Part shown: one piece after another, positions 16,492 to 59,292 of the stretch
Layout: each line of letters begins with the position of its first letter
Position numbering within the stretch: position 1 is the stretch's first letter
Translations under genes and position numbers: made by a program
Notes under the pieces: generated by a model
Databases searched by the model: none
What the model was told of the DNA's origin: nothing
What the model saw: only the letters and a program-made list of their open reading frames with translations
Source of the DNA: Artocarpus heterophyllus
Taxonomy: Eukaryota; Streptophyta; Magnoliopsida; Rosales; Moraceae
Reading direction: 5' to 3'
Length of the DNA stretch: 64,000 nucleotides
Assembly (NCBI GenBank): GCA_025403435.1
Contig: CM046340.1
Coordinates: 13,212,091 to 13,276,090, forward strand

Positions 16492-19030
16492 ATGAGTGAT
16501 TTGTTCGATTTCTAGAATGTAGAGGTCTCCTGGTCGGACAGTAGCGCGGAGAGTAGTAGTTCTTCTACCACCCAGTCTGACGCAGAGGTAGCGTCCCCGA
16601 GACGGGACGGGGCCGGCCGGCTGGAGCAAATCCTGAGGGTTGACTCCCAGACGATACCCAAACAGGAATTTTTAAACATGCTGGACGGGCGAAGGCTCAT
16701 TAGGCCGTCTAGGGAGCAAGACCCCTATGTCGGGTCGGCTACAGCGGGCTCGTCCCGAGTTATTCCAAGGGAGAGGGCCGAGCTTCAGACCCGCGAGGAT
16801 GCTCCGAGCACTTCCGGCCTGAACGTTGGGGCCCCGGTCCAAGTCGCAGGAGTGATCATGGTTGACGTCTCTGACGAAGAGCATGTAGTCGAGGAGGCGG
16901 AGGCAGAGCAGCAGGAGATGGAGCAGGAGATCCAGGTCACCTGCGTCCGAGTAGTGACGGCATATCGGGTAACCCGGCCTGGGCAAACCTTAGTGGCGGG
17001 CTACACAAGCGCCATCACCGAGTCACGACTGGAGAACCTATGTGTCGAGTATGGCATCCCAGACGACGTGATTCTCATCATCCCCGGTGAGGGAGATTCA
17101 CCTTTAGACGCGCCGGAGGGATGCATCACACTTTATGCCGAGTTCTTCAAGGCTGGGCTGCGTCTGCCGTTGCACCCCTTTCTCCGTCGGGCACTCAACG
17201 ACTTCAACGTGTGCCCGGCCCAACTGAACCCGAACAGCTATAGGTCGCTGATCGGGATGTACATTCTATGGAAGTACCACCGGAGCACCGAGATGCCGCT
17301 GGAGGCCTTCAAACAAGCGTTCAAGATGAAGAAGCTTCCTCGGCAGTCCGGCTGGTACTACGTCACCGGCTTCCTGAAGGATTTTATCCTGGGCAACCCC
17401 GACTCGGACAAATTATAGAAGTAAGAATGGTTCTACGTCGGGGGAAACTTTCTAGCCCAAGCCGATGAGGCCGTCCCTGAGAATCAGCAAGTGCCAAGGT
17501 CGTTCGAGCAGGGGCATGTTTGGACCAAGCGCCCCTGGGCCCCGAGCCGTGTCATCAGGGCTGTTGATGAGCTGTTCGACAAGCCAGAGTCGACCAGGCA
17601 GCAGTCCTTCCTCCTCAGAAAGGAAACTTTATCTGGTTACGACTGGTTCGGGGAGTCCAGCAGTCTTCCCCAAGCTGTTTGTCCTGCTTGGGGGGCCGGG
17701 CAGGTTACAATTACTCGTCTGAGTGCCGCAGATGTTCCGGGGCCAAGCACTTCCCGGTCCGGGTGGCCGACGAGGGAGCCTTCTACGTCCAGTTTTGAGG
17801 ACTCGTCCAGTGGCTCCTTCGATGCAGGGCCACCTGTAGCCGACGAGGACCTCGAGGACGTGATTAGGCTCCTATACCCGTCTCGCCAGCTCCGGATCGG
17901 AGGTCAGCCTAGAACTTTATTTTTACTGTCGTCTTTTTCTTATCCCGACCTCGCTTTGACTTTGCATTTCCTTGTGCAAAAATGACGGCACCGACCTCCC
18001 ACGTCGATAGACGCGCCCAGATGGCAAGTTTAAGGAAGCAGAAGGGCAAGGCTGTCGACACCGGGAGAAAGCATAAGCGGACGCCGAGGCCCGAGCTTCC
18101 AACCTATACCGGGCAGGTCTCCACATCAGTCCATGTCCCGCCACCTCCGCCACAGCCGACCAGAGCCTCGCCAGAGGTCACTCCAGCAGACGAGGCCGCC
18201 AGAGGCTCGTCCGAGGACGTACAGAGAAGGCGTCCGAACTACCGTGGCGTCGTTCTTGAGCGCCTCGGAGATGCGGTTCCTCAGGATGACTTCTTCATGA
18301 ACATCCGGGGGGAGGACTTCCAGAGTCTCTGTAACACGGCCTTCCGAGCCGCCGCCTCTGTAAGTATCCGAGCTTAACGATAGTTGGATTCCTTTTATCA
18401 TATTGCCGAGGACTGACGCCTTTTCTTGTAGGTGAGCGTCGTTCTATATATGGTGCACTCCACCGGGATAAGGGAGATCCACAAGGAGAAGGAGATGCAC
18501 AAGAAGACCTTCCTGAAGAAGATGGACTCCGACAAGAAGCTCAACGATAAGAACATTGAGCTAGACCAAGCCAAGGAGTCCCTCTCACGGGCCCAGGAGG
18601 AAGCTCAGAAGGCTAAGGTCGAGGCCGAGGAGGTAGTGAGGCAGCTTAGGGAGGCAACGGATAGGGCTGCACGGCTTGAGGGGCAGCTGACGACCCTGCA
18701 GGTAGAGCACCATCACTTCGTCGTCGAGCTCCCTGGTCGCCTGACAAGTGCGGTTGAGGAGCGGTTGAGGAATTCAAAACATCCCCGGAGTATGACGATC
18801 TCTACTACTTCGGCATGACAGACCTCCGTAAGCACCTGATCGAGAAGCACCCCGAGGCGGCGAGATTCGACTGGTCAGTGATTGTCGAGCCCGACCAGGA
18901 TGGTGCCAAGCAACAGCAGGGTGAAGAAAACGAGGTCGTCATGGTAGACGGCGATGACGAGGGGGATGGGCAGAGCACCGGAGGAGGCAGAGGCGAGGAC
19001 GCGGTTGGGGGCGAGACCCAGGCCGATTGA
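16492..19030 (+). pseudogene. Antisense gene of the Tat element, Transposase_28-like (PF04195) protein, three exons, broken
   Basis: Lies between integrase and 3' LTR, opposite to the element. By my reading, exon 1 is 16492-17902, exon 2 17980-18359 and exon 3 18432-19030, with introns of 77 and 72 bp; phases agree and imply an original product near 792 aa. The region with GLRLPLHPFLRRALNDF (about 17155-17210) resembles the 'putative gypsy type transposon' family PF04195. Exon 3 encodes a coiled coil rich in Glu, Lys and Ala, then an acidic tail. Breaks: TAG in codon 8 (16513-16515), TAG and TAA at 17416-17424, a probable G-to-A change at the intron 1 acceptor (17979), and an 11-bp tandem duplication (18750-18771) that shifts the frame. 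Extra ORFs at this position are known in Tat elements such as Grande; their function is unknown. Confidence 0.8.
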
Positions 19031-19949: not shown

Positions 19950-21152
19950 TAAGAGCTCAACATTCTATGGATGACCGAGCTGATTCCCCTCCATGTTAGT
20001 TAATCTGTACATGCCCGGTCGTACGATGTCTTCGACTCTGAATGGACCTTCCTATTTTAGACCGAAGGACCCGAGGCCGGGCTGTTGAACCGTGACATTC
20101 TTCAGTACCACGTCACCAACCTTAAAGCTTCTGGGCTGGACTCTTTTGTTGTAATATCGAGCTACCATCTGGTTTCGAGCTGCGTTACAAATCGCTGCTT
20201 GGTTTCTCTTTTCTTCGAGTAGGTCGAGCTCGGCCATCGTCAGCTCCACGTTCGGGGTATCCTCGTAGTGTTCAACTCTAAAGCTCGACAAACCTACTTC
20301 GACTAGGATGATAGCCTCAGCCCCGTAAACGAGGGAAAATGGTGTTTCATCGGTTGCTGTTCAGGTAGTTGTTCAATATGCCCAAAGCACCTAAGGGAGT
20401 TCGTCAATCCAAGCACCCTTAAGCCCCTCGAGTTTTTTCTTCAGGTTGTCTTTGATTGTCTTGTTCACGGCCTTAACCTGGCCGTTACTCTGCGGATAGC
20501 TAGGAGAGGAGAAGACCTTCTTAATACCAAGCTTCTCGCATAGACGCCATAGACCTGATGATTCAAACTGTTTGGCGTTATCGGTCACAATGGTGTGTGG
20601 GATCTTGAACTGGCAAATGATGTTCTTCCACACGAAGTTGGTGCACTCGGTCATGTTGGTACAGGGTTCAACTTCGATCCACTTCGTAAGATAGTCAATT
20701 GCCACGATGCAGTATCTGAATTGCGATCGGGCCGTTGGGAGAGGTCCGATCAAGTCGATGACCCACTTTACGAATGGCCATGCCGAGGTCACTGGATTGA
20801 GGGGCTCGGCGTAGGAGCCAGGAATTCTAGCATACTGTTGGCATTTGAGGCATTTTCGAGCAAAGTTCCCGCAATCTTGCTGCATGGTAGGCCAGTAGTA
20901 TCCCTGTCGGAGGCACTTTTGGGCCAAAAAGCGTCCTCCAGAATGATTGCCGCATAGGCCTTCGTGGATCTCACTCATCAGATACTCGGCCTCCTTGGGG
21001 TCCAAGCATCTCAAGCATGGTGTAGTGCAGCCTCGTCGGTATAACTTTCCAGTGATCATCGAATACCGAGCCGAGCCATTACGTACCTGACGTGCTTCCT
21101 CTCGGTCGTCGGGCAACTCAGCTGTGGTCAGGTATCGGATGATCGGGTCCAT
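19950..21152 (-). pseudogene. Tat integrase with a mutated catalytic glutamate
   Basis: Integrase inserts the cDNA into the genome. The HHCC zinc finger (HEGLCGNHSGG ... CLKCQ) lies near 20970-20845 and the core has WVIDLIGPLP and TDNAKQFES. The third catalytic position, usually Glu in NGQVEAVNKT-type motifs of this lineage, reads NGQVKAVNKT (about 20490-20460): a GAG-to-AAG change that should abolish activity. The frame is open from 21152 to 20391, then has three stops in about 40 bp (20391-20350). A further open part (20291-20052) resembles the C-terminal region (RSFKVGDVVL). The TAG just upstream of 21152 lies where family members have Trp. Confidence 0.88.
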
Positions 21153-23353
21153 CTAGGTACTTCTCGGCTCCTCGGCCAGGCTCATGACCTCCTTAACTAT
21201 GCTTGGTTCGGACAGTCTTTCGATGGGGACCAACGTTAGGTCACTTCCACCCAAGCCAGAGGCTAGTCGGGCAAGGACATCGGCTTCCACGTTTTTCGAC
21301 CGGGGGATCTGCTTGAAAGCATAGGATTTAAATTGCCTGAGAAGTTGTTTCGCTTCTTTTAAATATGCTGCCATAGAGTCCGCTCGGGCCTGAAATCCTC
21401 CAGTGACCTGCTGCACCACTAGCATTGAGTCACTGTAGATGGTGAGGCGGTTGACGCCGAGATCTTGGGCGATTTGGAGTCCGGCCAGCAGAGCTTCATA
21501 TTCTGCCTCATTGTTAGAGGCCTTGAAGTTGAACCGGAGGGCATAGATGACCTTGTACCCGTCCAGGCTCGTTAAAATCAACCCGGCCCCCGATCCATCG
21601 ACGCAGGTAGAGCCGTCGATGTGCAGTGTCCAGTCCAGCCCCGGGGAGAGGCTTCTTCGCTAGAGCTTGGTGTATTGGGCTCTTAAATGGGTGACTTCTC
21701 AACTTATGGAGTCGCCTTGCCAGCCTCCGTGAATTCGGCAATGAAATCCGCCAGGACTTGAGCTTTTATTGCCGTTCTCGGCACGAAATGCACATCGTAT
21801 TGGCCTAGCTCAACCGACCACTTGGCCATTCGGCCCGATATCTCCGGGCTCTGGAAAACCTGCCGAAGAGGGAACTTGGTCGGGACCTTAATGGTATGGC
21901 CTTGGTAATATGGTCGCAGCTTCCAGACCGATGTTATTAAGGCGAAAGCCAACTTCTCCAGTGGTGGGTACCGCTCCTCGGCACCTTGGAATGCGTGGCT
22001 GGTATAATAAACGGGTCTTTGGATCCCGTCTTCGTCTCAGACCAAGACCAAGCTGACAGCTTTCTCTGACACGGCTAAATAGGCGGTTAAAGCTTCACCA
22101 GGCAGAGGTTTGGACAGGAGCGGGGGCGTAGCCAGGTAAGTCTTTAAGCTTTGAAAAGCTTCTTCACACTCCCTGCTCCACTCAAACCTCCCCTTAAGTG
22201 CCTTGAAAAAAGGGTGGCACTTGTCGGTAGCCCCGGAGACAAACCTTGACAGGGCTGCCACCATGCCAGTGAGCCGTTGTACATCCTTTGCTGTCCGAGG
22301 AGAATGCATGTCGATAATCGCCTGGGCCTTCGCTGGGTTGACCTCTATTCCTCTTCGATTGACCAAAAATCTGAGGAATTTGCCCGAGCTGACGCCGAAG
22401 GCGCATTTTGCCGGGTTGAGTTTCATCCCATATTCCCAGAGAATGTCGAAGCTAGCTCGGATGTCGGCCATGTGGTCTTTTGCTTGGACAGATTTTACTA
22501 ACATGTCGTCCACGTAGACTTCCATAGTTTTTCTGATCAACTGAGCAAACATCTTATTGACGAGGCGTTGGTACGTAGCTCTGGCGTTCTTGATGCCGAA
22601 TGGCATCATGACGTAGCAATACAAACCCTGGTCGGTAACGAAGGCGGTTTTGACTTGGTCTTCCTCGGCCATCCTTATCTGATTGTACCCGGAATACGCA
22701 TCCATAAAGCTTAGAAGCTCGTGGCCGGCAGTGGCATCGACGAGCTGGTCTATCCGAGGAAGTGGGAAGCAGTCTTTCAGGCAGGCCTTGTTGAGATCGG
22801 TGTAGTCAATGCAGACCCACCATTTGTCGTTCGCCTTCTTGACGAGGACAACATTCGCTAACCATTCCGGGTATTTGACCTCTCTAATGAATCCATCCTT
22901 GAGGAGTTTCTGGACTTTATCGTTGATTGCAGCATACCTCTCTGGGTTAAAGGCCCTTCGTTTTTGTATCACCGGCCTGTGGCCAGGTTGGACGTTGAGC
23001 TGATGGCTGATAATGCTCGGATCAATGCCGGGCATGTCCTCATGGGACCACGCAAAAACATCACGATATTTGGAAAGAAGGCATTCCAGGTCGGCCCGGA
23101 TCTCAGGTCGCAGCTGTGATCCGAGTTGGACTGTGCGTTCAGGCCTTTCAGGGTCTAGGGCGAATGGCACTAAGTCTTCGACCAGAGTGGCCCTTACCTC
23201 TTCCCTGGGCAGCCTAGGGTCCAGGTCTGCCAACATCTTAGGCGCTGGGTCGACGGGGAGATCGGCCTCGTCGATCGAGTAGACGACCAAGACGCCATTG
23301 TGCAAGGCTGAGGCTGCTCGTACAGCACTAGCGTAACAAGTCCAGGAGTCTAC
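21153..23353 (-). pseudogene. Tat reverse transcriptase and RNase H domains, with stops and a frameshift
   Basis: The open segment 23305-22037 carries the linker FAWSHEDMPGIDP, the RT palm motifs (CIDYTDLNKACLKD, FMDAYSGYNQI) and an intact YVDD (about 22515-22505), then the connection and first RNase H region. A TGA at 22039-22037 interrupts it; reading resumes in frame to 21704 with two TAA codons shortly after. A +1 shift near 21650 leads into a second RNase H domain of the archaeal-like type found in Tat elements (GAGLILTSLDGYKV, FKASNNEAEYEALLAGL, IYSDSMLVVQQVTG, ADVLARLAS; 21590-21260). The second RNase H supports the Tat assignment. Confidence 0.9.
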
Positions 23354-25593
23354 CTAGGATGATTATATCACTCCAACGCCGTCGTCGATCGGAAATTTCA
23401 TGGCCAGGTGGTATGTTGACAGGATGGCCTTCAAGCCGTTTAGCGTTGGTCGGCCGGTGATGATATTGTACAGGAAGGGTTTGTCGACAACTAAAAAGTT
23501 GACTACCCGAGTGATCCTAGCAGCTCCTTCTTTGAAAGTCATCAGCAAACTGACTTTCTCGGTTGCTCGGACACATTCCCTCGCAAAGCCGTAAAGCGGG
23601 GTCCGGACTGGGACCAAGGGGGCGTTGCTTATCTTCAGTCTGTCAAAAGCCTGTTTGAAGAGGATGTCGGCTGAACTACCGTTGTCGATTAAGACACGCC
23701 GCACTACATTGTTGGCGATGGGCAGTTCGCATACCAGGGCATCGTTGTGGGGGTGCATCAATCGATCTGCTTCCTCCTCGGTGAAAGTGATCGAGGTGTC
23801 TTCTTGACGGCATATCTTGTTGATGTGCTCGGACATGTTTATGAATTCACCCCGCTTGATCCGTCGAGCTTCTCTGACGTAAGATCGCCGCCCATTCGAC
23901 GTGTCCCCGGTAACAGGCCCGTCGAATATCATGTGAACGATATTCGGGGGATCCGAGGTGTTCCCATCGTCGGTCCTGGGTCGGTTCTGTACGTCTCGGC
24001 CCAACGAATCGTTCCTTCCCGAGGTGGGCCTTGGGGCTATAACCCGCTCCACAAATTCTTGCAAATGACCTTCTCGGACCAGTCTTTCTATCTGGTCCTT
24101 CAACTGAATGCATTCCCTAGTACTGTGCCCCACATCCTTATGGAACTCGCAAAACTTTGACTGATTTTGCTTCACCTTGCTCCCTCGGAGCTTGGGTGGT
24201 GGTGTTAGTAAATTTTTGCCACTAACTTGGGCGAGCACCTCGTCGATGGTCGCCACTATTGGTGTGTAGCTTTGAAACTTACTGGTCGGCCCCTTTGGCT
24301 TCTCAGATTTCTCTTTCTTCTGCTTCTTACTATGCTCGGCGCTGCTCTGTTCTGGCACCTTCTTCTGTTTCTTATCCTTCTTTGTTTCACTCGGGCCAGC
24401 CTCTTCCCGACGGCTTTTCATGTATTCTGTAGCGTTAGCGTGTCTCTGAGTATACCCGAGCATTTGAGAAAACGTGCTCGGCTGTTCAAAGGCTAGGGAC
24501 CAGGTCAGCTTCTCGTCTCGGAGACCCCCCACAAAAATGTGTTTGAGGGTCTCGTCTTCGACGTGCTTGACCTCAAGAGCTGCCCGGGTAAACCGGTTAA
24601 TATAATCCCTGACGCTGCCGTCTCCCTGCTTAACGGCATACAGGTATGTTATTTCTTTCCTCCGCGTTTTGGTTGTGGAGAATGCGGAGGAGAAGGCGTC
24701 GGCCAGCTGTCGAAAAGAAGAAATTGAGCCGGGTTCGAGTCGTCGAAACCACTGCCGAGCAGGGCCCGTAAGGGTGAGTGAAAAGGCTTTGCACATCGCC
24801 GCGTCACTGGCGTTCTGCAGTAGCATGTGCCCCCGGAAGAGTTCAACATGCTCATCAGCATCTGTGGTCCCATCGTAGGACTTAATCTGCGGTACCTTGA
24901 ATTTCGGCGGCATAGGCGCCCGCATTATGTTGTCCGGGAAAGGTGGGTCCTGAGCTCCTATGTCATCTAGGCCAAATCTGCAAATTTGGATCTCGTCGAT
25001 TTGGCGCTGTAGCGCCCGGAACTGGCGGCTGTTGGTGTCTTCGGGTAGTTTGACCCTCTAGGGTACTCCGCCCTCGACACGGCCTCCAGCTCCAGGCTGA
25101 CGGTTCATGTTTGCTCCCTGAGACCCAAGCCGGTCAAACACCGAGGCCCGAGAAGCTTGTGGCAATGGAACACGAGCCGCTTGGCGTCCAAGACGGCGTT
25201 CCTGAACCAACCTATTATTAGCTGAGACCCCTCGGGAGGAGCCCGCAGACTGCTCGGATTGGTCTTCTTCAAGGTCGGCCGCACTTCGCTCAACTCAACC
25301 TCCGGCCTGGTCAACTTGGGCCGGGGGTGGCAGAGCTAGTGCAGCCTGGCGCTGAGCTTACTGCGCCAGCTGTTGAGTTAGGATCCGGACCGCGTCTATA
25401 AGTTCCCGGATCGGATCTTGGGCGACCGGGGCATCCATCAGCTCGGCCCTTGCTGTGCTCCCTTGCCCCCCGGACCGGGACCGTGCAGTCTGGGGACGGC
25501 CCTAGGCCTGCCTGTGTTTGGTTGCCTATTTCTCTCGTCACCCGACCCCTCCTGTCGGGCTGGCTCGTCTCTGGCGTTGCCTCGGGTCGTCAT
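23354..25593 (-). pseudogene. Tat gag and aspartic protease, with nonsense codons
   Basis: Gag packages element RNA and the protease cuts the polyprotein. From a Met at 25593 (MTTRGNARDEP) the N-terminal part is broken by several stops (for example near 25345, 25275 and 25063). From 24925 to 23363 it is open for 520 codons: the gag capsid region (YDGTTDADEHVELFRGHM, FSTTKTRRKEITYLYAVKQG), a Lys-rich linker, a knuckle-like CEFHKDVGHSTREC (about 24145-24100), and a protease with VLIDNGSSADILF (about 23700-23660) and NIITGRPTLNGLKA. TAA (23365-23363) and TAG (23356-23354) then separate it from RT in the same frame. The Asp-Asn-Gly active site, not Asp-Thr-Gly, also occurs in related plant elements as far as I know. 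Confidence 0.9.
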
Positions 25594-37976: not shown

Positions 37977-40402
37977 CTAAAAAGTATTAGAAATATCTGC
38001 TGGTGGTGACCTTGAAGGAGAGAACAAGAAAGGCTTGGGTGGTACTGGCAAGGAATCAAGACTCCCTTCCAACATTTCTATGACTCTACTCATTGCGGGC
38101 CGGTCTGAAGGGTTAGTTTGTATGCACCACAAGCTCACAATTATCATCTTCCTCACTTTCACCCCATCTTCTTGGTTCATGATTCTCTTCAATCCAAGTT
38201 CTTCATCTAGCTCAAGGCGCTTGTAAATCCAGTGTGGAAAATACATTTCACTTGTATTTCCTGCTCCAATATTGACATTCTTTCTTCCTCCTACCATTTC
38301 AAGAACCATCATTCCATAACTGTAGACATCAGACTTATGTGAAATTCCTCCGAAGTTTCTGCAAAAAACTTCGGGAGCAATATATCCAACCGTCCCTCTC
38401 AGTCCCAACATTGAGACAAGACTTTCTTTTCGGGTGCAAATTTTGGCTAGGCCAAAATCCGAGATTTTGGGCGCAAAGTCTGCATCAAGGAGAATGTTAT
38501 GAGGCTTTATGTCAAAATGCAAAATTCTTGTATTACAACCACGGTGTAAATATTCTAGCCCCCTAGCAATGCCCAATGAGATTTGGTAGTGCATTTCCCA
38601 ATCCAGCTGATGACCATTTACTGTGGCATTTTCATCAAATATGAATTTCTCAAGTGATCCATTCCCCATGAACTCATAAATGAGAGCTCTTTTAGTACCC
38701 TCACAGCAGAAACCCAACAGAGAGACAATGTTAACATGAGAAGTTTTGCTAATGGCTGCTACCTCATTAACAAATTCTTCGCCATTAGCTTTCGATTCGT
38801 CTAGCACCTTAACTGCAACAAGACAACCATCATGCAACTTTCCCTTGTACACACTGCCAAAACCTCCTTGGCCTAATTTTTCTTTGAAAGAGTTGGTCAT
38901 TTTCTTGACATCCAAATAGCTATATCTTCTAGCTTGCAGTGGCCCGTAGTTCTTTAGAAACGCCTCAACATTTCTCTCTGTTAGACTCTGCTTCTTCCAA
39001 ATATGGGATGAGAAGTATAACTTCCACATACAACAGAAAACCAGAATCAGTACAACAATACCAGATAACGTCCCTGCAGTCAAAAAAAGTAAATGAGAAA
39101 CTATAATGTTCTTGAAGTTATACAAAATAAGGTTCTAGCGGTTTACTAAAATCTAAAAAAATCTAGTTTACTCTGACCAATTCTGTGGTGTTTTGTAATT
39201 CAATTGACATTCTCACCTAGTCCCAACTACAATCCCAATTTCTTAGGTCCTAAGGATTTGTCCAGATTAGCATCAGTAACAATTTAGTTGTCTCGTAACT
39301 AAAGAAGTGTCTTACCAAGTCCAGACCTCAATTCCCGCTTTTTAGATCCTGCAACATTATAAAGAAAAATTTTCTCAGCAAAAGTAATCAATGAGGAAAA
39401 GATCATAAGATAAAATTGGGGCTCACCAAAATCAAAACTTGAAGTGTGAAAATAGAAATACGAACCTATCCGAACATTTACAATCAGAAATTGTTCGTAG
39501 AAAACTGTCACATACTTTTCGCAATCCCAAATGAGAATTTTAATAAAACAAAGCTATAATAGTGCTATGGAGGATAAGCATAGTGAAAAGTACAAAGAAT
39601 AAGAAAGACGTAATCCATATAAGAAGCCATGCTCATGCAATCTGAAATAGATACCTCTTTCTTTCCCATCCAAACAAGAGGATTCATCGTTGCCCTTAGG
39701 TTGGCATTGGCCTCCCCTAAAGTAACAATCACGACAGTAAAGGCTTACACTCACATCAAGGACGCAGAAAGGTAAACTTGAAATTTCGTTATCGAGATTT
39801 CTATGATAGCCCGGGAGCTGGATCATCGAACACTGATATGGACAAGATGAAAGATTAATATTTGAAACAGCATAGTAGATATCATAATTTCCAAAGCTGG
39901 TGTGACTAAAATCTTCCGGGAGAGTAATGTGAGGACTCTGGCTGCAATTGAAGACGGTTAACAAATTGGGCGTAGACAGTTTAGATATCATGGAAGGGCC
40001 AGGAAGAGCAAAACTGTCATTGAATTCACATTTGCTGGGATCAAAGTGTCCCCGTTGCACCCCGCTCCCAATGGTAATAGAATCTTGTAGAGGAGAGATG
40101 CGTTCAATTTCATACCAATGTCCTCCTTCTTTTAATTGTATCTTCGGAACAGGCTCTGAACAATTAATTGTGTACAACCCACATTCAGTGCTCGTATTAT
40201 TTCTAAATGGGGGTCTCATCTGCCCAAGTTTTCCACACGAAAACGATGGACAACCCGGGTGATGTTTCTGCTCTTCAGCCGAGCCAAGGAGCACAAGCGG
40301 GGAGAGAAAGAACACAAGAAGCAAGGAAAAAGAGGCCATCAGGAATCCTGTAACTGGAAAATAACCGTGTTCTCCAATAAATAATGGCCTCTTAGTAGAC
40401 AC
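37977..40402 (-). CDS. LRK10-like receptor kinase (GUB_WAK / WAK-associated ectodomain), three exons
   Basis: Plasma-membrane receptor kinase of the LEAF RUST 10 DISEASE-RESISTANCE LOCUS-like group. Exon 1 is 40402-39655, exon 2 39348-39316 (33 bp) and exon 3 39073-37977; all junctions are GT...AG and phases join to 625 aa. The likelier start is the Met at 40339 (MASFSLLLVFFLSPLVLLGS), a signal peptide, giving 604 aa. The ectodomain has the cysteine pattern of wall-associated kinase relatives (CPSFSCGKLGQMRPPF, CGLYTINC, CRDCYFRGGQC). A transmembrane helix (about 264-281) follows the mini-exon. The kinase is intact: GQGGFGSVYKG, VAVKVL, HFDIKPHN (Phe for Arg, common in this group), DFGLAK and GTVGYIAPEV. 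No break is visible, so it is probably active. Confidence 0.93.
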
Positions 40403-41639
40403 CGAAGTTTCTTTTCACGGCCTGTTGTGTTCTTTTCTTAGTCGCGCACGCATTGACTTGTTCCGTACCCAAAAGTCAAGGTAATTGGAAATTGCATGGT
40501 GAGTTACCATGTGGAGAAGTTCACGTCTAGCTTATCGTCAGATAGAATTAATCAAGTTTTTTCCACAAGGTATGGAAAGTCAATGAAAGATAAAGCTTGT
40601 TTGGAAAACGATATTCCAACGACTTCAGGACCATACACTTCAAAAGTATTGGGTTGCGAGTAATAATTTGCATTGCCGTGTTGTTTTGGGTTGTACTATG
40701 GACTAGAGAAATGGAGAAGATAAATACAACTCAGCTGATCGGACAGGCTCATGTGTTTACGTTCTATATTTTTACCGCCCATTTAGTAATATAAGGGTCG
40801 CAATATGGTTTTACAAAACAATTCGACTAGATCTTGTTTTAAATTGATTGTTTAATTGACACGAAAATTGACTCCAATTAACTATATTTGTTAAATTTTT
40901 ATTACAAATATTGACAAATACTTTTAAAAAGGTATTTTTTCATATTAATTTAAAATTTTAATTATGTAATTATACTTTCTAATTTTAATTATTTTTCGTT
41001 GTATCTTTCAATTTTAAAAACTACAAAATATTATTTTAATTAAAAAAACCTGTTTTAATTTCCTTCTTTGCATTCATTCTGGACAAAAAATAAGGAAAAA
41101 AGACAACCTCCCAAACTTACAGGGAAGATTCATGGCCGCTTAACCTAAAAAGAGGCATACAAATTCTGTTCAGTTTATGATCTAGCGTTGTTGAGGATCT
41201 CGCAAGCCCTAACTTCCCTACGATTGTGTGCAACCAGTATGTATTCATAGGGGCCCAATAAGTAAGACGGATTAGATATACATAGAATTTGATCATAATA
41301 AAGCATAATCTACTCACACATCATTTTATAAATGTTTTAAGCTTGTTTTGCGAGTATTGAGCGAAAGATGACTCAAAAATATTTATGTTGTAGGTAAGTA
41401 ACCTGTAAGAAACTTGTGATGGACAGTGACAAATGACAAACCGATGGTCGAGATGGATATCGATACCACTTGCTAATATATATTCCACAATAGTTTTAAA
41501 ATGAGCATGTGTATACATATAAGTAGTTTTGCGTTTGAAACTAAGGCTCTAACTGTACAGACTTTTCTTAAATTACTTTAAGATTTCTATCTTGCAAAAT
41601 GCATAAATGAAGGGTTTAAACTAGTTAACAATAGTAATA
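40403..41639. other. Intergenic DNA upstream of the LRK10-like gene
   Basis: The first few hundred bases should hold the promoter of the minus-strand kinase gene. The remainder is AT-rich and no gene is seen. Confidence 0.5.
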
Positions 41640-50377: not shown

Positions 50378-52735
50378 TGTGACACCCGTTATTCTCCTAA
50401 CGGGTATTGAGGTAATTAAATTAATTTTAATGTATAAAAAAAAATTGCTTCATTTAAATTTATTTTATAATATTTATTTTTATCTATTTTTAAGTTTTCT
50501 AAAATTCTCCTATATTTATTTAGTATGATTACTAAAAAGCCTTAGAACTTCTAATAAATCTCAAAAATGTCATATTGGCATTATGTGTGTTAAAGTCTTT
50601 AGATGAGACATAAGGATATCTTTTCCAACTACTCTTGACCCTCATTTTCTTTATTTCCTCCGTGACATGCTTCAACATGTCTCCTCTATAATTGTTTCTA
50701 TCACTTCTTTTCAAAGACTTCATCTTTTCTTCCTTTCTCTTCCACGGTTCCCACACTCTTCTTCTCATTTCTTTGCTGAAGCAAAATACTTAGAGAACTT
50801 CTTCAAGGCAGCCATAAAAATCAGCCACCATCACCTCCATTTGAGCAAGAATTTCAGTCATACCGAAGTAAAGGAACCTGTTTTGAAGCCATTTCAAGCT
50901 TCCAACTAACCATAATCCGAGGTTAGAATCTTATGAACAAATTTAGTCTTTCATTTATAAATTTTCTTTTATACTAAAGGATTATTCAAATTTGCGTTCT
51001 TAAACCTAAGTATATGTTTGTTGCTATTTTGGAGCATATGTATGAAGTCTAAGTGTATATGCCCTAGACAGAAAATTTATATTGTTAAACTTTGTAATAC
51101 CTCTATGGGCAGTGGTTATTTCTTGAAATTCTAAGATTAAATTAAAATGAATTTTATGAATTGGTTTGCATATTTGAAAAGTAGCATCCTAGGCTTTCTA
51201 ACGAGCTATCATAAACCTAAATCGGAGTTGTATTTTATTTTCTAAGAATTATTCAATTTTTGTATTGGAAACTAGTAAATCTGCCAGTTTGTTATGGTAT
51301 ACCAACTACTAACCTGAACCAAGAACCCATCTTTGCTCACCACCTAATTCTTTAATGTCTTGCAACCTTTCCAATATTATCCTAAGTGATTGATGAATCT
51401 TATTAGGGACTAAAACATATAGATTACTTGTTCACATTTTATATTGTGTTAAGACAAAAATTGTTTACTGTGGTATTCAAAAGAGATTTATATAAAAGCT
51501 TTAATGGCATACTAGTAAGATAGGTTTACACATGATTTATTTATGAATGTAGTTGTATGTTGTGCTTTAGTTTTAATTGTCCTTATGCACGCCTTAGGAT
51601 CAAGGGAGTATGGAGCTAACGTTAACTGATTCCAGGATTAAAAGATTGTTGATAAGCTTGAAAGGTAGGGATTCTATTACTCATCTTTTGTAAGGTTTTT
51701 ATAGAATTAAAATTGATTGTTTTGCCGCAATATATATATCTATGTTGAACTGATATTATATGAGTATCACATATGAAACTATGACATGGACTCGTCTTGT
51801 ATTGTACGGCGAGGAACATAATGAATTTACACATGTTATAAATTGAGAAGCATGGTTAGGAAAACTAACTCTATTGATAATGATTCAATATAGAGAAATT
51901 GTAAGACATGAAGAGGGCGACGGTTACGTCCTTGGGCATGAATACCCTAAAAGGTAAAATAGGGGGAAGGCGATGACGCTTCCTTGGGTTGAAAGTCCCA
52001 GAACACACTGTACAGGAATCGATTTGGTGAGGACTCGGGGCTTGATGTCCCCTCACCGGAACACCCTTGGAATGTTTATAGGGTGATCAAGTGCGCCCAT
52101 TTGGGTTTCGATGAGTTGAGTGATACTCAATTTAACATGGATACCTAGGAACAATGATGATTGGTAATATTTGTATAAATGTGTAATTATGACACTTGGT
52201 AATGATTAACTACGGTATCCATAAGATGTGATCATAATAAACCTCATAATCTGGAATATGATGTAACCTACTAACCATGCAGTTTTTAATGTGGTAATGA
52301 TAAAAACCTAAAGGTGAGTAATGGCTTTCTCTACTGAGCATAGTGTTGCTCATTCCCTTATGTTTATATCTTTTCAGGACTCACTAAGTGTGAGGTGGCT
52401 ACGAGAAATATAGTTGACGAAGCGATGTAACTATATTACATTGGGACTGCTCAATTGTAAAGAATGTTCTTCATGATAATGTAAGCATCAATTGTTATTT
52501 TCTGTGACTGTATTACAATGTGTTGAGGGTTAAAATGATGATGACAACAGTTTATATTATTAAATTTAAGGTGCTACATTAAAACTGTGGTTTATTTATC
52601 GTTTATATTTTTATTTTTGAGTTGAGAGTTTTCATTTAAGTCCCCGGGTAAATTTTATTTTTAAGGTTTTACTTTTATTATTTATTTTTATTTTATCTCA
52701 TTAAAAACTGTTAACCCCCATATAGGGGCGTTACA
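50378..52735 (+). repeat. 5' LTR of the LOG-carrying element (2358 bp)
   Basis: Starts TGTGACACCCGTTATTC and ends ATATAGGGGCGTTACA. A TATA-like stretch (TATATTTATTT, about 50511) precedes a CT-rich leader (50620-50770). A candidate splice donor CGAG|GTTAGA has its GT at 50922-50923. A G+C-richer block at 51895-52080 holds three GGG...CCC foldbacks. The minus-strand ORFs inside recur in the 3' LTR only because the LTR itself is repeated. Confidence 0.95.
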
Positions 52736-52742
52736 GAATTTT

Positions 52743-52755
52743 TGGTATCAGAGCC
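52743..52755 (+). promoter_or_regulatory. Primer-binding site, initiator tRNA-Met type
   Basis: TGGTATCAGAGCC begins 7 bases after the LTR end. It is the standard complement of the 3' end of plant initiator tRNA-Met used by many LTR retrotransposons. Confidence 0.9.
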
Positions 52756-54221
52756 TAGGTTCGGTTAACCTAGGGAGTGTAGCACCACTTTAAAAAAAAT
52801 ATATTTTTGAGATGGTTTTGAAGCTGAATTTTCATTGTCATCATCAAAATGAACCTTCACATTGATTTATACAGTCTAGAAGGATGTAACATGGAAAGGC
52901 CATAGAATGAAAATATCAATAGTTATATGAGTACAATAATTATATAGAAGGAAAGTATTAATAGTTATAAGGGAATGATAATTATATGGAATGAGTTTAT
53001 AAGTAGATTGCTTATGAGAGATTCGTATAATATTTGGATCTATAAGCATATCTAATTCGTATAAACGATGAGAAACTCGTGTAGATACGAGGATTTAATA
53101 GCCTTTTGTCTCGTGAAAAACAATAAGAAATATAAGGCTTGATTTATTGATTTTAAAGTTTGGCATAGATATGCCAAATTTTTCGTAATTGATTCAAACC
53201 TAAGTAATGATTATGTGTGGATTCGATGGAGCACATAAGTGTCAATAACTTTTCTTAAAAGTTCTATTTATTTGAGGAATATGATATAAGTTGGGAATCA
53301 TGGTATTGAATCTTGAGAGAGATAAATGTTAGACTTTTGGTCTGTTGAGACTGTGTAAAGTCTAGAATGCATGAATCTCAAAATTGGAATATTTCGTTAC
53401 GTACATTGTATTTAAGTGTATCAGTGAATCTTTTGGTTACCTAAGGTTTTGTTATATGAGGAAATTATATATTGTATGAGTAGAATTGTGGGGATTGTAG
53501 ATGTTCTTAAGTAGTAACATCTAGTGTCTTTGTTCATTGATATGGTCAATGTTGGAAGACGTAAATCGTATTGATTTCAAGGTTAGTCGCATTCTAAACC
53601 CTTGGTAGTAATGATGATGAATCCATTGATAGATGTTAAGTATTATGAATAACATATGGGTGTATGTATTGTTCAATAAGGTTTGATTAAAACAAAATTA
53701 TTTGAGTTGCTGGAAGATTAAGTTGTTATGAAATGATTTTAAATATCATTCAGGAAGATCCTTGTTGTCGTTAAATTAGATTTGTTGTTTATAGTTAACT
53801 TATCTATAGTGGCTTTGAATTGGGTTTAAGATTCATACGAATTGGTTTTCAATTTTATGTTTGTTATTTAACTCGTTCTAAATGTGTTAAGGCCGAAACA
53901 ACCTGACCATTTTCAACTAAGAACATTTGGGCCTAGTTCAAATCTTAAATCAGTTTGATTCACACTGTCTCTCCCACGTGGTTTCTATACGTGTCATATA
54001 CAGTAGTTTAATCATTGTTTACAAATACGTTTACTGTGCATAGGAGCTTATTTCTCTGAGTTCACTTTTTCTCTCTTAATTTGTTATTTTCTCTTTAAAT
54101 CGCAAATCCTCTTCTTTTTCATTAAAAATTCTTCTTTTCTTCTAAAAGAAGAAGGAATTCTAGGATTCTGCAATTTACTATCTTAATTTTTCCTTTCTAT
54201 TTACTCTTCTTTCATCTCATC
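52756..54221 (+). other. 5' internal region of the LOG-carrying element, noncoding
   Basis: No gag or pol reading is found here. A direct repeat with a period of about 46 bp (ATCAATAGTTATATGAG / ATTAATAGTTATAAGGG) lies at 52917-53000. A perfect G-box CACGTG (53975-53980) with a TATA-like CATATACAG about 15-20 bp downstream precedes a pyrimidine-rich leader (54055-54220), so an internal promoter for the two ORFs is possible. Confidence 0.45.
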
Positions 54222-54743
54222 ATGGACCCAAAGTACCAACACCTGAGAAAGTATTTCCCATCACTCTCCCAAAAGATTCTCAGAAAGAAATACAAGGCTA
54301 GAATTACTCGGTTGTGGATTCTTATGCGTTTTGGTATCCCTTGTGATGTGAGAATGTTAATAGAGGGGAAAATCCGTCCGAGTGACTTTAGTCAAGATGT
54401 CGGTTTACCAGGAACAGGTACTAGTCGTAGTGCAATGAAAAGAAGAGCTCGTGCCATCGTGGTTACTTGTAACAAATGTGGAAGACAAAATTGTAACGGT
54501 AAATGTACTTCACCTGGTTATATGTCTACGAATAGAGAGGATAAAATAAGGTTTTGTAGGGATGGACTTTCAAAGGAGAACTTGGATAGCATCCATCCTC
54601 CTCTCCACGGTCACCCTAGTGGATATGTTCAAGGAGCTATTTTTAAACTCTGGCCTAAATTTTATACAGAAAGACAACGCCTCAGGAATATGGTATTTCT
54701 AGATCCTGTTTGTCAAGCCATAAGAAAACTGGATGGGGAATAA
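54222..54743 (+). CDS. Basic cysteine-cluster protein, 173 aa (viral NABP-like layout)
   Basis: Intact ORF, first in the element. The N-terminal half is basic and helix-prone (RKKYKARITRLWILMRFGIP, 21-40), followed by GTSRSAMKRRARA (66-78) and a cysteine cluster CNKCGRQNCNGKC (83-95, CX2CX4CX3C). The C-terminal part (96-173) has no motif I know. A helix-prone region, then a Gly-Ser-basic arm, then a Cys cluster, is the layout of the small cysteine-rich nucleic-acid-binding proteins of carlaviruses and vitiviruses, some reported as silencing suppressors or transcription activators. The likeness is by layout only. A diverged retroviral-type nucleocapsid knuckle is the alternative, but the expected CX2CX4HX4C spacing and His are absent. 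It sits 642 bp upstream of the LOG ORF on the same strand. Confidence 0.6.
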   Translation: MDPKYQHLRKYFPSLSQKILRKKYKARITRLWILMRFGIPCDVRMLIEGKIRPSDFSQDVGLPGTGTSRSAMKRRARAIVVTCNKCGRQNCNGKCTSPGYMSTNREDKIRFCRDGLSKENLDSIHPPLHGHPSGYVQGAIFKLWPKFYTERQRLRNMVFLDPVCQAIRKLDGE

Positions 54744-55385
54744 GTCATCGCTCTAAAAAGGTTATTTAGTCTTTGCTTATTTGAAGCAGTTTTAGCTGAT
54801 GTTCAACAGTTTGTGTTTTTCTTTTACTCAGAATTTTGCTTTTGTGTTTGAAATAATTGTGATTATTAGATTGATACAGTAAGTGTTAATATCTTATTTA
54901 ATTTATGATTTTCTTAAATATATATATAATAAAATATATTATCTTATCAGACACGTTACATACGGTACAGTAATATGTTTGAATTTTGAAAAACTTATCC
55001 AGATATTTCAAGATTTGTGTCTCAAATTTCAAAAGTTCTACAGTATTTGTCGTTTATATTAAATTTCTAGACTTGGTGTATATTTGTCAAAAAGTCTACA
55101 GTTGTGTCATGAGGGTCTTCTGTCGAATTGTTCTCAATTGTCAAAAGTTATACAATTAGAGTCTAATCTTTTTCAAAAAGTGAATCAGATTTTCTGTAAA
55201 CTATCAATCACCTTATCTTACTTTCTTATCCGCACAAGATTTTGTTTCAATCTTTGGATTACCTTTTCATTTCCTACTCATCTATCTCTTTAGCCCTTTT
55301 TGTATATTTCTCATCTTTAAAATCTCATGTAGAACCCGAAGTCTAAGTGGAGCAGACATTAAGCAACCACTTCTATAAACCAAAT
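54744..55385 (+). other. Spacer between the two ORFs
   Basis: AT-rich, no gene. A pyrimidine-rich stretch ending CTCATGTAG (about 55323-55331) could serve as a splice acceptor just before the LOG ORF. A GTG-initiated extension at 55347 is unlikely; the ATG at 55386 is the natural start. Confidence 0.4.
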
Positions 55386-56036
55386 ATGTCTACCTCCCAG
55401 TCCACGAAGAAAATAAAGAATGTCTGTGTCTTTTGTGGTTCCAGCCTTGGAAAAGATAAAGCTTATTTAGAAGCTGCAAATCACTTAGGGCAAGTCCTAG
55501 CACGCAAGAAGATTAACATAATCTATGGGGGTGGTAGTATAAAAATGATGGTAAATATGGCACTAGCAGCTAGGTCTAGCGACGCTACTGATGTAAGAAT
55601 TTGGCCTCATATTCCAGTTGAAGGAAACCTTTGTAAGGAAGCCATAGGTAAGGGAGAAGGAGTCAAGAGTATCCCTAAAAATTTTAAAGACATAATCTAT
55701 AATTCTGATGCTTTTATAGCATTACCTGGTGGTCTAGGTACTCTTGAGGAAATATTTATAGTTGCTTGTGGGCAATTGTTGGGCTTTTATTCCAAACCTT
55801 TGGGACTGCTGAACGTAAAGGGTTTTTATGACGGTCTTTTGAAATTTCTAGATTACGCTGTGGAAGAAAACATCACTACAGAATCGGAGAGACAAATCTT
55901 TGTCACTGCTTCAACAGCTGAGGAATTGATAGATAAAATGCAAATCATACATCCAGAATCTGACACTGCAACATCCAAGCTTGAATGGGAAAGGGAAAGC
56001 CGGGAGCGGCCAATTGATTTGAATCTCCATCTGTAA
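55386..56036 (+). CDS. LOG-like: LOG-family (cytokinin riboside 5'-monophosphate phosphoribohydrolase-like) protein, 216 aa
   Basis: LOG enzymes act in the cytosol and nucleus, releasing active cytokinin bases from cytokinin nucleotides. This uninterrupted, intronless ORF has family length and fold markers: VCVFCGSS (13-20), YGGGS (47-51), DAFIALPGGLGTLEE (108-122, the PGGxGTxxE signature with its Glu intact), KPLGLLNV (137-144) and SKLEWE (197-202). Two regions depart from plant LOGs. GGGS is followed by IKMMV where GLMG is usual, and the MHxRKxxM segment with its catalytic Arg reads IPKNFKDI (96-103). The C-terminus DLNLHL (211-216) is an LxLxL EAR-type repression motif, which I do not know from other LOGs. 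Host LOG genes have introns, so the copy was probably captured from an mRNA. Enzyme activity is uncertain; binding of a nucleotide is likely. Confidence 0.9.
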   Translation: MSTSQSTKKIKNVCVFCGSSLGKDKAYLEAANHLGQVLARKKINIIYGGGSIKMMVNMALAARSSDATDVRIWPHIPVEGNLCKEAIGKGEGVKSIPKNFKDIIYNSDAFIALPGGLGTLEEIFIVACGQLLGFYSKPLGLLNVKGFYDGLLKFLDYAVEENITTESERQIFVTASTAEELIDKMQIIHPESDTATSKLEWERESRERPIDLNLHL

Positions 56037-56975
56037 TCTTTTTGTTTTATCTTGGCATGTAGGCATGTGTGTCCGTATTTCGTGTGTTACGAATAACCGT
56101 TTGCCTTGTATTCTGTGTTTCTTGTGGTACGTTGTTGTTCAATCTTTTAGATTCATTGAGCCTAATGCCGGGATGGCTGGATACGGAGTACTTGATGCTC
56201 TCGAAACGCATCCTTCTTAAGGTCCGATCTTTTGTTTATCGATGTTTTTGTATCCTCTAAGGATGCATGATATGGATAGCTGGTATACGGAGTGCCTTGC
56301 ACTCTCGAAACGTATCCGTATTATGTTTGTAATGTGTAATATTCTGTTAATATTATGTGGAAGTACCAGAGTCAGTTATGGGGATATTCCATATGAAATA
56401 TGAGTATATTATTTGGATTGAATGTTTGTGTCATGAGGATAGCTGTTTAATGAAAAATATGTCGGGTATGTTTGCAACCAGAGATTCCGTTTAATATCTC
56501 TATGAATAAGTTTAATGTATAGTTTTGAATAAAAGTGTTTGTGATATATGTTTTATGATTATGTTCTAGTTTATTAGTTGAGGTATGAAATCAAATATAT
56601 TTGACTTTTCTTTACTCAAAAAGGAAAAGGAACCTAAAGATGAAGTATATAAAATTTCTCTGGCAATCTCCTTAAATGTGATTGTAAATCACAGTCCATG
56701 GACAATGAAGGACTGGAATCATGGTATGGTCAATATGTATGCCTGATCAGATTCTTAGACTATTACACGGTGTTATAAGTTGAAACTTGTCAGAAATACT
56801 CTCATTGAGGGATTTAGGAGTAAGATTTATTATGCAAGTAAATGAGTGGAGATACGATAACTTAAATTTGGAGGACAAACAACATTAACGGTTTAGACTC
56901 AGAATTGGAATCATAATGGAATTAAAATTTTTACTAGTATTGCTAGAATTGAAATTTCGAGGACGAAATTTCTTT
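56037..56975 (+). other. 3' internal region of the LOG-carrying element
   Basis: Noncoding. It holds two related hairpins (56171-56317), AT-rich sequence, and the TTTCGAGGACGAAATTTC block that precedes the polypurine tract. Confidence 0.5.
56171..56317 (+). repeat. Two direct-repeat stem-loops downstream of the LOG ORF
   Basis: Both copies share GGAT-GCTGG-ATACGGAGT ... CTCTCGAAACG-ATCC. In the second (56281-56317) GAGTGC pairs with GCACTC around a 3-base loop, and ATACG pairs with CGTAT outside it. In the first (56179-56213) GGATACG can pair with CGCATCC with one mismatch, and GAG with CTC. They begin 135 bp after the LOG stop codon. Confidence 0.6.
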
Positions 56976-56989
56976 AAGGGGGGTAGAGC
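56976..56989 (+). promoter_or_regulatory. Polypurine tract of the LOG-carrying element
   Basis: AAGGGGGGTAGAGC directly abuts the TGTGACACC start of the 3' LTR. Confidence 0.85.
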
Positions 56990-59192
56990 TGTGACACCCG
57001 TTATTCTCCTAACGAGTATTGAGGTAATTAAATTAATTTTAATGTATAAAAAAAAATTGCTTCATTTAAATTTATTTTATAATATTTATTTTTATCTATT
57101 TTTAAGTTTTCTAAAATTCTCCTATATTTATTTAGTATGATTACTAAAAAGCCTTAGAACTTCTAATAAATCTCAAAAATGTCATATTGGCATTATGTGT
57201 GTTAAAGTCTTTAGATGAGACATAAGGATATCTTTTCCAACTACTCTTGACCCTCATTTTCTTTATTTCCTCCGTGACATGCTTCAACATGTCTCCTCTA
57301 TAATTGTTTCTATCACTTCTTTTCAAAGACTTCATCTTTTCTTCCTTTCTCTTCCACGGTTCCCACACTCTTCTTCTCATTTCTTTGCTGAAGCAAAATA
57401 CTTAGAGAACTTCTTCAAGGCAGCCATAAAAATCAGCCACCATCACCTCCATTTGAGCAAGAATTTCAGTCATACCGAAGTAAAGGAACCTGTTTGAAGC
57501 CATTTCAAGCTTCCAACTAACCATAATCCGAGGTTAGAATTTTATGAACAAATTTAGTCTTCATTTATAAATTTTCTTTTATACTAAAGGATTATTCAAA
57601 TTTGCGTTCTTAAACCTAAGTATATGTTTGTTGCTATTTTGGAGCATATGTATGAAGTCTAAGTGTATATGCCCTAGACAGAAAATTTATATTGTTAAAC
57701 TTTGTAATACCTCTATGGGCAGTGGTTATTTCTTGAAATTCTAAGATTAAATTAAAATGAATTTTATGAATTGGTTTGCATATTTGAAAAGTAGCATCCT
57801 AGGCTTTCTAACGAGCTATCATAAACCTAAATCGGAGTTGTATTTTATTTTCTAAGAATTATTCAATTTTTGTATTGGAAACTAGTAAATCTGCCAGTTT
57901 GTTATGGTATATCAACTACTAACCTGAACCAAGAACCCATCTTTGCTCACCACCTAATTCTTTAATGTCTTGCAACCTTTCCAATATTATCCTAAGTGAT
58001 TGATGAATCTTATTAGGGACTAAAACATATAGATTACTTGTTCACATTTTATATTGTGTTAAGACAAAAATTGTTTACTGTGGTATTCAAAAGAGATTTA
58101 TATAAAGCTTTAATGGCATACTAGTAAGATAGGTTTACACATGATTTATTTATGAATGTAGTTGTATGTTGTGCTTTAGTTTTAATTGTCCTTATGCACG
58201 CCTTAGGATCAAGGGAGTATGGAGCTAACGTTAACTGATTCCAGGATTAAAAGATTGTTGATAAGCTTGAAAGGTAGGGATTCTATTACTCATCTTTTGT
58301 AAGGTTTTTATAGAATTAAAATTGATTGTTTTGCCGCAATATATATATCTATGTTGAACTGATATTATATGAGTATCACATATGAAACTATGACATGGAC
58401 TCGTCTTGTATTGTACGGCGAGGAACATAATGAATTTACACATGTTATAAATTGAGAAGCATGGTTAGGAAAACTAACTCTATTGATAATGATTCAATAT
58501 AGAGAAATTGTAAGACATGAAGAGGGCGACGGTTACGTCCTTGGGCATGAATACCCTAAAAGGTAAAATAGGGGGAAGGCGATGACGCTTCCTTGGGTTG
58601 AAAGTCCCAGAACACACTGTACAGGAATCGATTTGGTGAGGACTCGGGGCTTGATGTCCCCTCACCGGAACACCCTTGGAATGTTTATAGGGTGATCAAG
58701 TGCGCCCATTTGGGTTTCGATGAGTTGAGTGATACTCAATTTAACATGGATACCTAGGAACAATGATGATTGGTAATATTTGTATAAATGTGTAATTATG
58801 ACACTTGGTAATGATTAACTACGGTATCCATAAGATGTGATCATAATAAACCTCATAATCTGGAATATGATGTAACCTACTAACCATGCAGTTTTAATGT
58901 GGTAATGATAAAAACCTAAAGGTGAGTAATGGCTTTCTCTACTGAGCATAGTGTTGCTCATTCCCTTATGTTTATATCTTTTCAGGACTCACTAAGTGTG
59001 AGGTGGCTACGAGAATATAGTTGACGAAGCGATGTAACTATATTACATTGGGACTGCTCAATTGTAAAGAATGTTCTTCATGATAATGTAAGCATCAATT
59101 GTTATTTTCTGTGACTGTATTACAATGTGTTGAGGGTTAAAATGATGATGACAACAGTTTATATTATTAAATTTAAGGTGCTACATTAAAAC
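56990..59192 (+). repeat. 3' LTR of the LOG-carrying element, cut by the assembly gap
   Basis: Aligned with the 5' LTR it shows 3 substitutions (near 57015, 57539 and 57912) and five one-base deletions. All deletions lie in homopolymer runs and all are shorter in this copy. About 150 bp of the end are missing in the N run. Confidence 0.95.
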
Positions 59193-59292
59193 NNNNNNNN
59201 NNNNNNNNNNNNNNNNNNNNNNNNNNNNNNNNNNNNNNNNNNNNNNNNNNNNNNNNNNNNNNNNNNNNNNNNNNNNNNNNNNNNNNNNNNNN
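59193..59292. other. Assembly gap (100 N)
   Basis: Exactly 100 N, the conventional size for a gap of unknown length. The sequence after it does not match what follows the insertion site in duplication copy 1, so the true distance and content are unknown. Confidence 0.98.

Follow-up and report, generated by a model that had tools for sequence, protein, structure and literature searches.

A young, high-copy LTR retrotransposon family of Artocarpus heterophyllus with a putative viral-type nucleic-acid-binding protein gene and a LOG-like gene in place of gag-pol

The window analyzed here is a stretch of 64,000 nucleotides (nt) from Artocarpus heterophyllus (assembly GCA_025403435.1, contig CM046340.1, positions 13,212,091 to 13,276,090 of the forward strand). 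Positions 50378-59192 of the window are one copy of a young, high-copy long terminal repeat (LTR) retrotransposon family. The LTRs enclose two open reading frames (ORFs), ORF1 and ORF2, together with a primer binding site (PBS) and a polypurine tract:

50378..52735, + strand: 5' LTR of 2,358 nt, TG...CA, direct repeat with the 3' LTR
52743..52754, + strand: PBS TGGTATCAGAGC, read directly
54222..54743, + strand: ORF1, 173 aa, predicted homologue of the flexivirus/carlavirus nucleic-acid-binding (silencing-suppressor) protein
55386..56036, + strand: ORF2, 216 aa from its first ATG (listed from an upstream GTG in the ORF list), LOG-like
56955..56969, + strand: 3' block TTTCGAGGACGAAAT, partly common to presumed Tekay elements
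56974..56989, + strand: polypurine tract adjoining the 3' LTR
56990..59192, + strand: 3' LTR, whose end is lost in a 100-N assembly gap (59193-59292)

The 5' LTR (50378-52735) starts with TGTGACACCC and ends with GCGTTACA, and over 2,203 aligned bases the two LTRs have 3 mismatches, in addition to a few gap columns. The PBS is presumably of the initiator tRNA-Met type. The final 37 nt ahead of the 3' LTR match a remnant at 2120-2156 of the window with 89% identity; this remnant and the other elements sharing the 3' block are taken here to belong to Tekay. The assembly gap truncates the 3' LTR at 59192 and so leaves the target duplication of this copy unreadable. The only ORFs of at least 80 aa listed inside the element are ORF1, ORF2, and one 80-aa ORF within the LTR. 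Neither ORF1 nor ORF2 matched a gag or pol model of Pfam at E<=1; no gag or pol was seen in the element, a result that covers its ORFs and a blastn comparison with a gag-pol copy but no translated search of the non-coding interior for decayed remains. The initial annotation, made from the letters of the window alone, had described an LTR element with a PBS, a purine tract, and a 3' block in common with Tekay, in which gag-pol was replaced by other genes including a LOG-family gene, and this description stands, the boundaries being confirmed here and in 15 further complete copies. ORF1, the better conserved of the two genes, had been left unnamed.

The genome containing the window comprises 985 Mb in 334 contigs. 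The first 623 bases of the LTR gave 40 scored places at 97-100% identity, some over part of the query (the best 40 of 87 candidates). Genome-wide, 2,976 places match the final 33 nt of the LOG ORF with <=1 mismatch and 3,797 match the LTR/PBS junction with <=2, while the control pattern was found 0 times in each case. On contig C1, an exact LOG end lies 3.18-3.42 kb downstream of 58 of the 65 exact LTR/PBS junctions listed. The family is estimated to occupy ~2.6% of the genome, if each LOG end represents a full copy of ~8.5 kb.

Twenty loci were taken at LTR matches, and 15 of them contain a complete LTR pair with both ORFs between. In four others (L020, L021, L024, and L027) a single LTR lies in the stretch, and L022 is nested or tandem; neither ORF1 nor LOG was seen in the stretches of these five loci. 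The LTR pairs of the 15 complete copies diverge by 0-0.35%; these copies were drawn from the best LTR matches, and the sample therefore favours young copies. A perfect 5-bp target duplication was found in 14 of the 15, the exception being L018, which runs on into interior sequence. The recurrence of the layout in 15 more complete copies, 14 with perfect target duplications, indicates that it is not due to chance. Two length classes of the LTR, ~2.36 kb and ~1.97 kb, were recognized. A single local insertion is ruled out by the many copies. A gag-pol hidden in the same family was also considered and rejected: 7 C1 junctions lack an exact LOG end, and the 5 of them that were read represent three copies of the same family, one N gap, and one diverged gag-pol relative. 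Head-to-tail arrays sharing LTRs seem to occur, as if by LTR-LTR recombination, at L018, at L022, and at C9:16537152-16564376, where five LOG matches are spaced ~6.6 kb apart on one strand.

Retention of the two genes was checked in 35 copies, which are the 15 complete copies and 20 from C1 located via the LOG-end pattern. ORF1 and LOG stand side by side in all 35 copies with an interior. The ORF1 frame is open in 28, the LOG frame in 32, and both in 27; the C1 set, selected without regard to open frames, has both frames open in 15 of its 20 copies. The LOG frame is open in 18 of 20 C1 copies and in 19 of 20 further copies on C2. As the C1 and C2 copies were located through the exact LOG end, they give no independent measure of how well that end is conserved. 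In a protein search with LOG, the best 150 of 6,121 candidates were scored and all are full length without stops, being the best by construction. Neither situation that the initial annotation had named as contrary to its reading, a LOG gene in only one genomic copy or gag-pol copies with LOG as a local insertion, was found, and many copies do keep both ORFs between matching LTRs.

ORF1 contains the basic stretch KRRAR followed by a C-x2-C-x4-C-x3-C finger, and this finger is found in 103 of 125 ORF1 relatives. The conserved core of the family consists of the basic stretch, the Cys4 finger, and NREDKI. The first homologue search recovered 15 proteins, 14 with a precomputed Carla_C4 domain. A profile search extended the relatives to 856 proteins at E<=0.1, and the 120 listed all carry Carla_C4, some of them being named from Xanthoceras, Populus (poplar), Hibiscus, Acer, Rhamnella, and Orobanche. 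When family members were rescanned at E<=0.1, Carla_C4 was detected in 14 of 16 (best 3.5e-7) and Viral_NABP in 13 of 16 (best 1.9e-7). The predicted structure of ORF1 (pLDDT 78.5, pTM 0.57) gave 36 fold matches against viral models. Ranks 1-18 include 17 plant-virus proteins named nucleic-acid-binding, RNA-binding, silencing-suppressor or 15K, and one unnamed protein; the viruses are presumably flexiviruses. Scanning of viral contigs with the ORF1 alignment revealed no relatives. One carlavirus cysteine-rich protein has a nuclear-localisation stretch ahead of a Cys4 finger; proteins of this kind are described as nucleic-acid-binding and as weak silencing suppressors, and have been connected with cell proliferation in one virus (PMC8839810). 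The p12 protein of chrysanthemum virus B is presented as a nuclear activator and a cytoplasmic suppressor (PMC7588395). By sequence and predicted fold, ORF1 resembles this type of nucleic-acid-binding (silencing-suppressor) protein.

A closer family of nucleic-acid-binding proteins (NABPs) in the same genome was sought with the homologue P0008 as a query and rejected; the best 150 of 5,312 candidates were all 51-54% identical to P0008, about as much as the element's ORF1. Three NABP-family proteins, P0238, P0241, and P0243, come from Orobanche minor and O. hederae; these parasites are asterids, whereas most of the named matches belong to rosids, a distant group. Either horizontal spread or an old family could account for them.

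Nei-Gojobori ratios among 14 same-length copies each were 0.18 for ORF1 and 0.32 for LOG in raw form, and 0.20 and 0.44, respectively, on distinct changes. C-to-T changes dominate, and therefore the ORFs were compared with the element's own non-coding changes as the neutral expectation, with changes counted per alignment column rather than on a tree and with non-coding matches below 96% left out. The 32 ungapped copies of ORF1 gave an omega of 0.30 (p 1e-4), from 23 distinct changes that are synonymous and 19 that are not; for shared changes only, omega was 0.17. For LOG, omega was 0.64 (p 0.06) in 33 copies; gapped copies, L030, L042, and L046 were left out of these two sets. With the C2 sample included, omega was 0.71 (p 0.09) over 52 copies, from 29 synonymous and 52 non-synonymous changes; gapped copies and those below 97% were left out here. 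Against the window copy, pN/pS was 0.04-0.28 for ORF1 (8 copies) and 0.07-1.04 for LOG (9 copies), the copies being mostly picked for divergence; three older copies gave 0.17-0.28 for ORF1. Thus, ORF1 is clearly under purifying selection, while LOG is constrained weakly at best. The initial annotation had proposed dN/dS as a check, with a value near 1 counting against it, and the outcome is divided: ORF1 is constrained, whereas the value for LOG lies near that limit.

ORF2 matches the Pfam family PF03641 (E 6.7e-22) and the PDB entry 2a33 (E 2.2e-43 by sequence and 1.8e-15 by fold, with a pLDDT of 76.3 for the predicted model), and its assignment to the LOG family is secure. The LOG fold and the PGGxGTxxE motif are kept, and the Glu and Thr equivalent to Glu178 and Thr175 of a bacterial LOG are retained in the protein of the window. 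The catalytic Arg is replaced by Asn99 and the next Lys by Phe100 in all 54 ungapped copies, including the window's and diverged ones. In this bacterial LOG, Ala at Arg155, Lys156, Thr175 or Glu178 abolishes phosphoribohydrolase activity, and Arg155 and Glu178 are called completely conserved across all LOG subgroups (PMC5379747). Judged from these residues, ORF2 has probably lost its enzyme function, and cytokinin activation by it is unlikely. The C-terminus of ORF2, IDLNLHL, is of the LxLxL type and is taken here to be an EAR-type motif. EAR motifs (LxLxL or DLNxxP) recruit TOPLESS.

Of 120 LOG homologues listed, 115 have a readable PGG motif. The Lys position is occupied by Lys in 16 of them and by Leu, Met or Ile in 97. 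An LxLxL-type end is present in 82 of the 115, and it is absent from 14 of the 16 with Lys. In a tree of 50 proteins, the element's LOG lies on a branch of 1.24 changes per site, beside P0023 and P0113. The EAR label is clustered on the LOG tree, with 5 changes and none of 500 shuffles as low, although some of the entries without EAR look truncated. A scan of viral contigs with LOG revealed no relatives. Among the LOG relatives, including poplar proteins annotated as LOGL10, loss of the catalytic Lys accompanies gain of the repressor-type tail; from P0072, P0095, P0107, and P0110 to P0019-P0130, R-K without an EAR tail changes to R-L/M/I with an EAR tail. The catalytic Lys seems to have been lost, and a repressor-like tail acquired, in a LOG line of some plants (poplar and Reevesia among its named sources); the element's copy seems to have gone beyond this line.

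The element shows the hallmarks of a Tekay-type (chromovirus) LTR retrotransposon: the TG...CA LTR, the PBS, the polypurine tract, and, in other copies, the 5-bp target duplication. The gag, reverse transcriptase (RT), integrase, and chromodomain of an autonomous Tekay were not found in it but were found in a partner copy, and the element is therefore a derivative rather than an autonomous member. The partner copy starts at the C1 junction 11951781 (+). It leads into pieces of gag, RT, and RNase H with broken frames, followed by integrase and chromodomain-region matches and a second LTR, and in the 4.5 kb after its RT piece no match to NABP or LOG was found. Its gag-pol matches lie behind a 35-nt LTR/PBS junction identical to that of the element. 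Its LTR is 77% identical to that of the element over 1,590 nt and 87% over 197 nt, and blastn aligns the two only in the LTR and ~90 nt beyond the PBS. The gag start of this copy matched 39 other scored places, all at 95% with near-equal scores (the best 40 of 886 candidates), which suggests a younger gag-bearing family. One LTR read from that family is 93% identical to the element over 887 nt, and the same copy is 84% identical across a 164-nt stretch made up of LTR end, PBS, and leader. The partner is presumed to be Tekay rather than another chromovirus lineage from its likeness to the remnant in the window, not from an RT tree. It is likely that this gag-pol family, with its related LTR, PBS, and leader in the same genome, is the helper, as the initial annotation had suggested. 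Its anatomy is as expected of a helper, and from the similarity of LTR, PBS, and leader it would mobilise the element.

The observations are best explained by a non-autonomous, high-copy Tekay-type (Ty3/Gypsy chromovirus) parasite without gag-pol, which carries a predicted anti-silencing ORF1 and a non-enzymatic LOG and is copied in trans; this explanation is considered fairly probable. The two-gene cargo stands where gag-pol would be. The RNA of the element would be packaged and copied in trans by the proteins of the Tekay family. ORF1 would be a nuclear or RNA-binding protein with an anti-silencing role, reducing the RNA silencing that the host directs at the element; this role is modelled on the carlavirus cysteine-rich proteins acting for the virus. 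Anti-silencing would pay for a parasite without gag-pol because both its own RNA and that of the helper would stay expressed. The LOG-like protein would no longer activate cytokinins, and it may, more speculatively, be an EAR-motif (co-repressor-recruiting) or decoy LOG; as the gene evolves fast, it could also be on its way out. A broader proposal is put forward tentatively, as possible rather than probable. Plant LTR retrotransposons may have acquired the silencing-suppressor gene of flexiviruses or may themselves be where it came from, and the gag-pol-less element may use ORF1 and an EAR-type LOG regulator as a cassette for anti-silencing and growth control, having parasitised a Tekay helper to reach ~3,000 copies.

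Several observations weigh against these explanations. ORF1 alone matches Viral_NABP with E 0.0096 and Carla_C4 with E 0.1, both below the curated cut-off of Pfam. Its fold matches are individually weak (best E 2.1e-3, none <=0.001), with TM-scores by query length of 0.25-0.41 in ranks 1-18 and the model pTM of 0.57. Its finger differs from C-x2-C-x12-C-x4-C, which PMC8839810 gives for a carlavirus. For LOG, the constraint seen among copies cannot be clearly told from neutrality. In other plants, no linkage of LOG and NABP within elements could be demonstrated; among 7 equal-sized record pairs, several are impossible or due to chance, and one (8,723 nt) is suggestive only.

ORF1 could instead be a nucleocapsid-like RNA chaperone which aids entry into helper particles, with the LOG-like gene as a passenger. 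It is basic, has a Cys4 finger, lies at the usual place of gag, and is under purifying selection, and carlavirus proteins of its type are described as nucleic-acid-binding (PMC8839810). Its relatives, however, are viral NABPs, several of them named RNA silencing suppressor, and not gag, and neither gag nor zinc-knuckle models appear among its matches to Pfam at E<=1; this role is considered unlikely, though less so than the following two. If both ORFs were neutral cargo, their frames would be open only through the youth of the family, as in other large derivatives without gag-pol. The LTR divergence of 0-0.35% in 15 copies and a LOG omega not clearly <1 agree with this, but an omega of 0.30 (p 1e-4; 0.17 for shared changes) for ORF1 and 0.17-0.28 in three older copies do not, and neutrality of both genes is improbable. 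The hormone-pathway model of the initial annotation, in which an active cytokinin-activating LOG favours dividing, germline-forming cells, could appeal to the retained fold and PGGxGTxxE motif and to the frames open in 18 of 20 C1 and 19 of 20 C2 copies. It fares worst and appears very improbable: in all 54 ungapped copies Asn replaces the catalytic Arg and Phe the next Lys, the branch is very long (1.24 changes per site), constraint is weak (omega 0.71, p 0.09), and Ala at either position abolished activity in the bacterial LOG (PMC5379747).

Steinbauerova (2011) is said to mention 'two Athila-like elements with similarities to LOGL4'. LOG (YgdH) domains are reported in PMC9289625 for Gypsy consensuses of two Citrus species and poplar, which likewise represent a LOG-like ORF in a Ty3/Gypsy element. 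A viral-type ORF1 is unmentioned there, 'nucleic acid binding' and 'carla' occurring 0 times in the main text (PMC9289625). A LOG gene in a Gypsy element is therefore not new, against the supposition of the initial annotation, and the Citrus and Populus elements, found via an RT marker, keep pol, unlike the element described here. Bs1 and elements of the LARD type contain captured coding sequence and move without their own gag-pol, as does this element. Compared with them, both genes here are open in 27 of 35 copies and one is under purifying selection. Bs1 is named in PMC7264820. The carlavirus cysteine-rich proteins, such as p12 of chrysanthemum virus B, share with ORF1 the basic stretch followed by a Cys4 finger and similarity of sequence and fold at the family level, but they are viral, mostly of 90-160 aa among the fold matches, have another finger spacing, and are not in a retrotransposon. 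AlkB occurs in flexiviruses. Orchid Gypsy elements with an ORF for an AlkB-like m6A demethylase are thus also LTR elements with a flexivirus-type accessory protein; they differ in their length of 25 kb, an additional 2-ODD ORF, and an activity tested in vitro (PMC9289625). A 2026 review of plant gene capture contains neither 'cytokinin' nor 'viral' in its main text (PMC13317346). No report of a carlavirus-type protein in an LTR element was found in the open-licence PMC literature (without preprints and most subscription journals).

The window contains the following other features; an ORF beside the kinase exon of one receptor-like kinase gene had no Pfam match.

1-2156, LTR from 2158: 3' part of a Gypsy element, presumably Tekay-type, with RNase H, integrase region, and SH3_Tf2-1 region
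12770-14263 and 37980-40414, - strand: receptor-like kinase genes, one with LRRs and a kinase, the other a kinase exon
16516-18374, + strand: ORFs beyond the integrase of the second Gypsy element, one of which matches Transposase_28 ('putative gypsy type transposon')
20394-25057, - strand: second Gypsy-type element with gag, RT, and integrase

The finding is real, and the family is young and numerous; its interest lies in the viral-type gene and not in LOG. Plants silence retrotransposons via small RNAs, and to our knowledge, suppressors of small-RNA silencing encoded by retrotransposons are hardly known. VANDAL elements are DNA transposons, and their VANC is a protein unrelated to ORF1. VANC of Arabidopsis VANDAL is, like the proposed ORF1, a transposon-encoded protein that counters host silencing, but its anti-silencing activity is reported (PMC5735166, PMC10398659) and is sequence-specific, while that of ORF1 is only predicted. 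A young family of ~3,000 copies, which has a viral-suppressor-type gene under purifying selection and lacks gag-pol, makes the question of retrotransposon-encoded suppressors testable. Through its 856 related proteins, ORF1 further connects plant genomes with a gene family of flexiviruses, and raises the question of the direction in which the gene has moved.

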